From Alsobacter soli (GTDB lineage: Bacteria > Pseudomonadota > Alphaproteobacteria > Rhizobiales > Beijerinckiaceae), in assembly GCA_945883115.1 (NCBI GenBank), contig CAMCXA010000002.1:1-64000 (forward strand): a stretch of 64,000 bases of DNA, in the 5' to 3' direction. The first letter of the stretch is position 1; every line of letters begins with the position of its first letter. Shown in pieces: positions 219 to 5,597 of the stretch. Below the pieces are notes generated by a model, which saw nothing but the letters and a program-made list of their open reading frames with translations, searched no databases and was not told where the DNA came from. Position numbers and translations under genes: made by a program.

Positions 219-266
219 CCTTCGCCATGAGGGAGAAGGTGTCTGCGGAGCAGACGGATGAGGGCC
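219..266 (+). repeat. 46-bp two-hairpin palindromic repeat, copy A
   Basis: This is one of three copies of a unit made of a GAGGGAGAAGG-type palindrome, then a small hairpin (GTCTG/CAGAC around loop CGGAG), then GGATGAGGG. It ends exactly at the TAG stop of the DUF559 gene on the opposite strand. The first palindrome is imperfect in this copy (CCTTCGCC instead of CCTTCTCC). The other two copies lie at 756-862 on the far side of the DUF559 gene. Confidence 0.8.
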
Positions 267-673
267 TAGCTTTCGTTGCGTTTCTCCAACGTTTCCATTT
301 GAAACAACGCTTCAGGAATGGGCCCGCCACGGGCCACAACAAGGGCGCGTCTGATCTCGTGAAGCACCCAGTGAAGCCGTTCGGCAATGTCTTCGTTCGA
401 AAACCGTAATTCAAGATATCCGGCAGCCTCCAAATCATGACGACGTGCACGATCTTCAGCCTCCCGCCCCTCATGCACGATCCCGTCAAATTCAATCGTG
501 AGCTTGGCTTCCGGACAGAAAAAATCAACAATATAGCCGGAGAGTTTCGCCTGACGTCGAAATTTGCAACCATCCAGCCGACGGGCTCTAAGCTCACCCC
601 AAAGGATCTGCTCCGCGACGGTTCCGTTGCGTCGGAGATGACTAGCAAACGACGTGAGATTGTTCGGCGACAT
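266..673 (-). CDS. DUF559 (Vsr-like) endonuclease-domain protein
   Basis: The protein is 135 aa. It shows the DUF559 signature: an N-terminal LRRNGTVAEQILWGELRARR helix region, FRRQ near residue 40, then YIVDFFCPEAKLTIEFDG with acidic residues at about D50, E61 and D63, and the later LRFSNEDI. This is a PD-(D/E)XK nuclease fold related to Vsr and very short patch repair enzymes. The ATG at 673 is preferred over the GTG just upstream. Family members are small and no cellular role is established. It is flanked on both sides by the 46-bp palindromic repeats, and its stop codon sits in copy A, which suggests a functional or mobility link like that between RAYT transposases and REP elements (inference). 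Confidence 0.8.
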   Translation of the reverse strand: MSPNNLTSFASHLRRNGTVAEQILWGELRARRLDGCKFRRQAKLSGYIVDFFCPEAKLTIEFDGIVHEGREAEDRARRHDLEAAGYLELRFSNEDIAERLHWVLHEIRRALVVARGGPIPEALFQMETLEKRNES

Positions 674-755
674 CACACAAAATACGAATGATCATAAATA
701 TTTTGAAGCAATCTAGAGTTGTATTTCGCTCTTTGCAGATACGACTAACACCAGT

Positions 756-862
756 CCCTCATCCGTCGCGTCCCGCGACACCTTCTCCCTCAGGGAGAAG
801 GTGGGCCCCCTTTTTTCCTTCTCCCTGAGGGAGAAGGTGTCTGCGGATCAGACGGATGAGGG
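756..862. repeat. Inverted pair of 46-bp two-hairpin repeats, copies C and B
   Basis: Copy C (756-801, minus orientation) and copy B (817-862, plus orientation) face each other across a 15-base spacer that contains a T run. Each contains a nearly perfect 21-bp palindrome (CCTTCTCC...GGAGAAGG) and a five-base-pair hairpin. That hairpin is GTCTG/CAGAC in B and GTCGC/GCGAC in C, so the two arms change together. The whole pair could fold into one long cruciform. It lies between the pth and DUF559 genes, both on the minus strand, and might also act as a terminator. Confidence 0.85.
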
Positions 863-4868: not shown

Positions 4869-5261
4869 TCACGCCAAATCTGTCGCGGCAAAATCATTGC
4901 CCTTGTAGAGGATGGGTTGCCCCAGTTCGCGCGCGGCAGCATAGGTCAGGCAATCGGCAATATTGAGCCGCGCTCCATGTCCCATTCCCTTGCCAAAGCG
5001 GGCAAACGCATCAATCGCCGCCTCGCCCATAGCTTCGGTGATGGGAACAACTTGAATACCGGCTTCGTCCAGAAACGCCGATGTCACAGCCCGCGCGGTC
5101 TCGACGTCATTGCCGAGCATCGTCGTCAGGCGCATCACCGTTTCAAGCACGACAAGCGGCGAGGTTACGGGCGCAATTGCACCTTCCAATCGTGAGGCCA
5201 ACGCGGATTTTTCAGGTTCGCGCCGGATGATCGCAATGAGGGCCGAGCTATCGACAAACAT
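4869..5261 (-). CDS. vapC: PIN-domain ribonuclease toxin, VapC type
   Basis: The protein is about 130 aa and begins MFVDSSALIAIIRREPE, with the first PIN acidic residue in VDSSAL. Later acidic positions lie in LETVMRL and in NIADCLTYAAARE, which holds the conserved D near the C-terminal third. Such toxins cut tRNA or rRNA when not bound by the antitoxin. The start is set by the TGATG overlap with the upstream antitoxin stop codon at 5261-5263, so the pair is translationally coupled. Confidence 0.88.
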   Translation of the reverse strand: MFVDSSALIAIIRREPEKSALASRLEGAIAPVTSPLVVLETVMRLTTMLGNDVETARAVTSAFLDEAGIQVVPITEAMGEAAIDAFARFGKGMGHGARLNIADCLTYAAARELGQPILYKGNDFAATDLA

Positions 5262-5491
5262 CAATGCCCCCACATCGCATCGATCTCGTCCTTCGTCATG
5301 TCACGGCCCAATATCCGGCAGCCGAGATGCTTGTCGAGCATCCGGTCAAGCCGCGTTTCGAGCGAGTCCTTTTCAGTCTCGCGCCGCAACTCGTTCTGCA
5401 AAGCAACGATGATCGCTTGGGTCATGGTTGTTTTGCGCTTGGTCGCCAAAAGTCTGGCCAATTCCGCCGCCTGCGGATCGCGGATGCTCAT
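5261..5491 (-). CDS. vapB: VapB-type antitoxin (Rv0623-like transcription factor family)
   Basis: The protein is 76 aa. The start MSIRDPQAAELARLLATKRK is chosen over a longer reading because the N-terminus then fits the family, in which a short beta strand and helix form the DNA-binding dimer. The sequence KTTMTQAIIVALQNELRRE forms the ribbon-helix-helix-like part, and the C-terminal segment (ILGRDMTKDEIDAMWGH) would wrap the toxin. It ends in a TGATG overlap with vapC. Autoregulation is expected from the family. Confidence 0.83.
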   Translation of the reverse strand: MSIRDPQAAELARLLATKRKTTMTQAIIVALQNELRRETEKDSLETRLDRMLDKHLGCRILGRDMTKDEIDAMWGH

Positions 5492-5597
5492 TGTCACGGT
5501 ACACTCTCCTGATGAGTCAGAGTGTATATACAATATGGGAATACGTCAATACAAACGGGTACGCCGAAACCGGCCGCTCCGGCGCAACCCTTATCCC

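Follow-up and report, generated by a model that had tools for sequence, protein, structure and literature searches.

Many DUF559 nuclease genes are bracketed by palindromic repeats with which they may form a mobile unit

The window, by which we mean the whole stretch of 64,000 nucleotides analysed here, begins with three minus-strand genes in the order ychF (partial), DUF559 and pth, the two neighbours being genes that we take to be pth and ychF from their sequence. The DUF559 gene (266-676, minus strand, 136 aa) matches Pfam PF04480 with an E value of 3e-33 over about 341-661, in agreement with the family assignment made in a sequence-only reading of this DNA, and it is bracketed by the three 46-bp units that the same reading had described, which we could place exactly as unit 1 (219-264, plus strand), unit 2 (756-801, minus strand) and unit 3 (817-862, plus strand). 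Units 1 and 2 are inverted repeats around the gene with their palindromes facing outward, and towards pth a further inverted pair arises from unit 3, which is inverted relative to unit 2 and lies 15 bp from it; units 2 and 3 are the inverted pair that had been noted on the far side of the gene. The unit said to end at the nuclease stop codon is unit 1, directly adjoined by the TAG (268-266), which is contained in a CCTAG motif (265-269, plus strand) lying 3' of the unit 1 tail and seen again after the tail in several other unit copies of the genome.

In the window, every unit is built from a palindrome of 21 nt followed by a small hairpin and by the tail GGATGAGGG. The palindrome and the hairpin had been proposed before and largely stand, with the corrections that the palindrome of unit 1 (219-239), which reads CCTTCGCCATGAGGGAGAAGG and is followed by the hairpin at about 240-255, is imperfect and that the hairpin stems comprise 5-6 bp rather than five. 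The hairpin arms are GTCTG/CAGAC in two units and GTCGC/GCGAC in the inverted one, the sequence thus changing with pairing kept, as claimed. An anchored unit pattern matched three times in the 64-kb window versus 0.03 expected, and 0 of 100 shuffles reached three matches. When folded as single-stranded DNA, the units form the 21-nt palindrome and the small hairpin, with z values of -3.8 (219-264), -5.8 (756-801) and -4.4 (817-862), every unit folding better than all 200 of its own shuffles.

Aligned copies from all fetched loci covary, as the sequence-only reading had led us to expect. Of the variable pair cells in 30 distinct units, those of other spacer length being excluded from the set, 111 of 127 were Watson-Crick, compared to a mean of 64.8 and a maximum of 78 in 500 shuffles, which overstate independence since the units come partly from related genomes; most positions show several pair types. 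Compensatory change in the hairpin is real.

The source genome (2.6 Mb, 104 contigs) yielded a single DUF559 match, that of the window. A search of the genome with the unit pattern returned 23 matches with at most three mismatches, of which we accepted 14 (13 with at most two mismatches and one three-mismatch copy paired with a good one), taking the nine remaining three-mismatch matches as chance, as the reversed control pattern gave 10. These roughly 14 units occupy seven places, six of which (five inverted pairs and one singlet) are without DUF559, and 3 of the 14 lie less than 200 bp from the single DUF559 gene (p about 1e-8). All five gene-less inverted pairs have their palindromes outward, as in the cassette, and the inner borders of three of the five (C4, C21 and C68) resemble those of the cassette; the gene-less pairs relate to the cassette as MITEs do to a transposon.

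Clustering of the repeats at DUF559 genes above expectation, which the sequence-only reading had suggested measuring, was found among the Alphaproteobacteria, where 49 of 78 DUF559 loci have repeats common to both flanks, as opposed to just 1 among 473 genes in their neighbourhood, and the inverted flank score singled out 45 of 78 loci versus 0 of 473, with flanks measured from the profile match for DUF559 and from the ORF ends for the controls. The remaining 29 of the 78 loci fail the flank test, and at least one passing locus was present in 34 of 51 genomes. The loci were drawn from 80 fetched ones, two of which (L166 and L180) were unscorable with too short a flank, and the 80 represent mostly the better-scoring match rows, some rows near contig ends or with an internal stop and the weak tail of the matches having been omitted.

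The association extends well beyond this class. In a multi-phylum sample comprising the window and the loci of 32 relatives, whose record titles name Cyanobacteria, Bacteroidota, Pseudomonadota, Omnitrophota, Planctomycetes, Verrucomicrobia, Victivallales, Anaerolineae and others, the flank-versus-flank alignment score was at least 40 in 25 of 33 DUF559 loci versus 21 of 1770 control positions, which were taken from the same loci, overlap one another and are mostly coding. By eye, many of the relatives' loci listed have, close to the gene, palindromes that are rich in GC, belong to the CCCTCTCC type and carry a tail similar to GGGTGAGGG, and in E. coli, Neisseria gonorrhoeae and on a Synechocystis plasmid, too, DUF559 genes have palindromes of this kind nearby. 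The repeats differ in sequence between lineages; names that might apply to them are E. coli box C and the rhizobial RIME or ABC palindromes. Within the 2x300 bp that adjoin DUF559, the density of the pattern GGGAGARGG-N(2-25)-GRTGAGGG exceeded that in the rest of 112 loci by a factor of 80 (69 of 84 units), and this literal pattern occurred within 300 bp of DUF559 in just 34 of these loci and on both sides in 18, with the palindromes outward in 14 of these 18. Orientation is nevertheless mixed, as palindromes point inward at the G250 locus (L120) and in Sinorhizobium.

At the level of whole genomes, 241 Alphaproteobacteria (191 genera) comprised 41 with both at least three repeats and a strong DUF559 match, 7 with repeats only, 17 with DUF559 only and 176 with neither, the corresponding numbers for 299 Pseudomonadota, a set that shares members with the first, being 64, 19, 20 and 196. 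A match counted as strong from 60 bits upward in the class and up to a best E of about 1e-16 in the phylum, weaker ones being treated as absent, and G073 was kept in the tables though its matches look like low-complexity sequence; matches of any strength occurred in 80 of the 241 and 112 of the 299 genomes. Genomes with at least three repeats had a strong DUF559 match in 41 of 48 cases in the class and in 64 of 83 in the phylum, and fewer than three pattern copies were found in 17 of 58 and 20 of 84 strong-DUF559 genomes, respectively, although the repeats there may have another sequence. With the pattern reversed as a control, between 0 and 3 matches were obtained per genome in both sets. In the 24 families with both states, genomes with DUF559 were richer in repeats in 21 and poorer in 1, with 2 ties, this within-family contrast being the sole control for confounders. 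Bracketing of DUF559 by repeats and the co-occurrence of the two in genomes are firm.

As the enzyme behind the repeats, RAYT was considered and rejected: Y1_Tnp was present in 11 of 48 repeat genomes versus 40 of 193 others (p 0.70), and a profile search for it (PF01797) gave no match in the source genome. In the class sample, one 1.4-Mb genome (G095) has 12 matches to Y1_Tnp, of which seven share a single score, and this looks like a recent expansion of the IS200 type.

The sequence-only reading had named genomes carrying many repeats and no DUF559 gene as evidence against a dedicated system, and genomes with repeats and no strong DUF559 do exist (7 of the 48 repeat genomes of the class and 19 of the 83 of the phylum). 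G034 (44 copies) and G449 (87) have no DUF559 match listed and G518 (109) has only a weak one, and repeats are present in the congeners G245 and G249, in which no DUF559 match was found; old repeats that had outlived a lost enzyme would give the same picture. Persistence of repeats in genomes without DUF559 is also what one would see if ordinary REPs were spread by something else and DUF559 inserted into or beside the palindromes as safe or preferred targets, an account to which the Sinorhizobium gene between two whole repeat dimers conforms and for which IS elements inserting into REPs, also in Sinorhizobium, provide a precedent in the text covered (PMC1525189). We regard this as unlikely, because a chance visitor would not predict DUF559 in most repeat-rich genomes and the co-occurrence is strong also within families; moreover, no other enzyme is evident, Y1_Tnp showing no link, and cassettes inside genes are flanked by repeats on both sides.

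Comparison of related loci revealed signs of movement. No repeat is present at the pth-ychF junction in 7 of 9 compared congeners (G246, G250, G248, G245, G244, G251 and G242), the junction of G249 contains an eroded gene-less inverted pair and that of G243 a remnant, and the full cassette is seen in the window. DUF559 occurs in 4 of 12 genomes of the genus, and the four other copies are on other contigs, including one with the palindrome outward (L122) and one with it inward (L120). Elsewhere, DUF559 lies in frame inside leuS (L029), ileS (L045) and metG (L050), with the repeat sequence translated, and the LeuRS insert separates blocks that match a solved LeuRS up to residue 483 and again from residue 495. 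In G094, an in-frame cassette splits an L,D-transpeptidase (YkuD) gene that is uninterrupted at this place in 3 of 3 congeners. The cassettes inside genes have repeats on both sides. In Sinorhizobium, a whole repeat dimer lies on each side of DUF559, and by eye the corresponding Shinella junction has neither the gene nor the dimers. No target duplication was resolved at the YkuD gene, the pth-ychF junction or in Sinorhizobium, the occupied and empty sites being too diverged in all three cases, nor was a fresh insertion resolved in the compared loci, and in Azospirillum all seven records covering at least 80% of the query have the locus, so no empty allele was found among them.

Turning to the enzyme, a structural model of the window protein (pLDDT 80.9) matched NGO0050 (3hrl; Z 15.9), whose sequence also matches the window protein (E 5e-18), the homing endonuclease I-Bth0305I (3r3p; Z 12.0, 94 residues, rmsd 2.3) and Vsr (1cw0, Z 9.2; 1vsr, Z 9.0), with TnsA of Tn7 a distant match (Z 6.1). 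In an alignment of 23 sequences (the window protein and those of 22 of the 32 relatives), E61 is invariant and E21, D50, D63, H67 and D74 are at least 90% conserved; the latter five are, in our reading from residue order, the EDxHD motif. I-Bth0305I is the closest solved fold outside DUF559 among the matches listed, has conserved E, D, H and D residues in matching order and, like DUF559, stands inside host genes. Unlike I-Bth0305I as described in the text covered (PMC3943268), DUF559 is about 135 aa in size, has no long DNA-binding extension, lies outside an intron or intein and is framed by palindromes. By modelled fold and motif, rather than by activity, a kinship of DUF559 with EDxHD homing endonucleases is supported.

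These folds bear on a further account, in which DUF559 and a host or unknown partner would excise and insert a strand-transfer transposon whose ends are the terminal inverted repeats and whose MITEs are the gene-less pairs. Terminal inverted repeats around a gene together with gene-less derivatives are indeed what the cassette shares with TIR transposons and their MITEs, the similar inner borders of three of the five pairs in the source genome and the in-frame insertions fit as well, and the fold is distantly shared by TnsA. However, the loci examined gave no sign of a partner transposase conserved next to the DUF559 gene, no target duplication was seen at the (diverged) sites, both repeat orientations occur and the closest folds among the matches listed are those of the homing endonuclease and Vsr, all of which makes such a transposon quite improbable. 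Nucleases of the DUF559/Vsr fold hydrolyse DNA, and none is known to rejoin ends by itself. A homing-like cut-and-repair route is therefore likelier than strand-transfer transposition.

The Vsr fold (Z 9.2) also raises the possibility that DUF559 is a mismatch-repair nuclease and that the palindromes are incidental terminators or mRNA stabilisers. In the text covered of a 2026 study, Caulobacter VsrA, which contains a DUF559 domain and is needed for the SOS response upon loss of the ScmA methylase, had its likely active site placed on that of Vsr; the authors interpreted the protein as serving mismatch repair and proposed T:G mismatches as its substrate (PMC12907096). From the VsrA data and the Vsr-type fold, it follows that DUF559 family members plausibly cut DNA in cells. 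Mismatch repair with incidental palindromes is nonetheless very improbable in view of the shared flank repeats being found at just 1 of 473 neighbouring genes of the same loci, the within-family contrast of 21 to 1 and the repeats kept by cassettes inside genes. No cytosine methylase ORF adjoins the DUF559 gene among the window ORFs, a further difference from Vsr, with a distant solitary partner possible, and no described Vsr system is known to include bracketing repeats.

Among known repeat systems, REP/RAYT (REPtron) and REPIN are similar in that, in the texts covered, a gene lies between two inverted palindromic repeats that are also dispersed as inverted doublets, with few genes and many repeats (PMC2817692, PMC3116915). 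They differ in that the enzyme here is a DUF559 EDxHD/Vsr-fold nuclease and not a Y1/HUH tyrosine transposase, and in that, by direct reading, the GTAG-type head is absent from the three window units. The DUF559 system works like REP/RAYT, yet it is not a member because the HUH transposase is absent; the resemblance to REP/RAYT proposed in the sequence-only reading is backed by clustering, co-occurrence and covariation and weakened by the repeat-rich genomes without a strong DUF559. CGTC-tagged REPs, in the text covered, are likewise palindromic doublets frequent in Alphaproteobacteria, some of them inside genes, and "apparently lack a dedicated transposase" (PMC3733652); by text description only, they have an unpaired CGTC end, a stem of 8-9 bp, a loop of 4-5 bases and a CCA tail, the last three of which seem to differ from what the present units show (PMC3733652). 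The REPs of S. meliloti are known as targets of IS elements, and the Sinorhizobium dimers around DUF559 are probably among those counted in that account, which treats the repeats as IS targets and, in the text covered, does not mention DUF559 (PMC1525189). The literature searched, with subscription papers and preprints mostly outside its coverage, yielded no paper that by its title, abstract or the text covered ties DUF559 to palindromic repeats.

Drawing on the bracketing, the association across the DUF559 family and across phyla, the co-occurrence, the pair architecture, the in-frame insertions, the fold and the motif, we favour, with a probability of roughly 0.6, the reading that the DUF559 gene makes up a single selfish unit together with the palindromes around it, the nuclease being dedicated to the palindrome family and the unit being spread by cut-and-repair. 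Judged from sequence and the structural model, the DUF559 nuclease likely acts on the palindromes: we infer that this small EDxHD/Vsr-fold endonuclease would bind them as duplex or extruded hairpin and would cut or nick at or near them, whereupon host repair could take another copy as template, copying the cassette (repeat, DUF559, inverted repeat) to new places. The gene-less inverted pairs would be the non-autonomous, MITE-like form, served in trans.

On this reading, DUF559 would supply the enzyme so far missing for a type of mobile DNA that is widespread but has been overlooked. A broader proposal, to which we give a little under even odds, is that of a phylum-spanning class of EDxHD mobile elements that move themselves and a large number of palindromic pairs by cut-and-repair, constitute a second, independently evolved counterpart of REP/RAYT and can be accommodated in frame within essential genes in the manner of an intein that is not spliced out. 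The link would give a testable role to the DUF559 family, which is named in only 14 papers of the searched literature, would offer an enzyme for REP-like repeats that are without one, would explain the in-frame inserts in aminoacyl-tRNA synthetases and would cast new light on VsrA, whose Caulobacter DNA damage was read as mismatch repair. If true, it represents a second solution, chemically unlike RAYT, for spreading tiny palindromes through genomes.

Several further observations were made along with these analyses. Carriage by phages or plasmids was considered as the main vehicle and dismissed, the window protein matching 1 of 50,697 phage and 38 of 72,556 plasmid records, several of the latter 38 having a length that suggests a chromosome deposited as a plasmid. 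Structural matches of the DUF559 model (Z 8.0 to 9.4) further include portions of human FASTKD4 and of Toxoplasma and Tetrahymena mitoribosomal proteins, Vsr-like folds found in RNA biology. In L162 and L193, DUF559 shares an open frame with another protein, which by eye resembles RuvC in the former (C-terminal side) and TilS in the latter (N-terminal side). In the window itself, two overlapping minus-strand ORFs at 4869-5533 resemble, by eye, a VapBC toxin-antitoxin pair.

At a pSymB site of Sinorhizobium, 18 of 60 listed rows are about 50 bp shorter than the 27 best rows, and Rm41, the one short row that was aligned, is without the stretch between two palindrome centres and retains one hybrid palindrome, S. 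fredii having the long form. The deletion (L228, L230, L232) spans 50 bp from palindrome centre to palindrome centre, and slippage between palindromes could be its source in S. meliloti. Not every E. coli has the DUF559 gene ycjD, as 3362 of 5426 genomes contain a place that covers 80% of the query (L210, L211, L212, L215); two other E. coli genomes (L211, L212) gave no readable empty ycjD junction and have an efflux gene cluster instead, which lies between sapF or its side and fabI where the ycjD place is missing. Finally, the E. coli tkt-ypfG spacer (L216-L221) harbours a DUF559-type palindrome in 2 of 6 aligned strains and a different sequence in the other four, which we take to be a classical REP, as if one palindrome family had replaced another.
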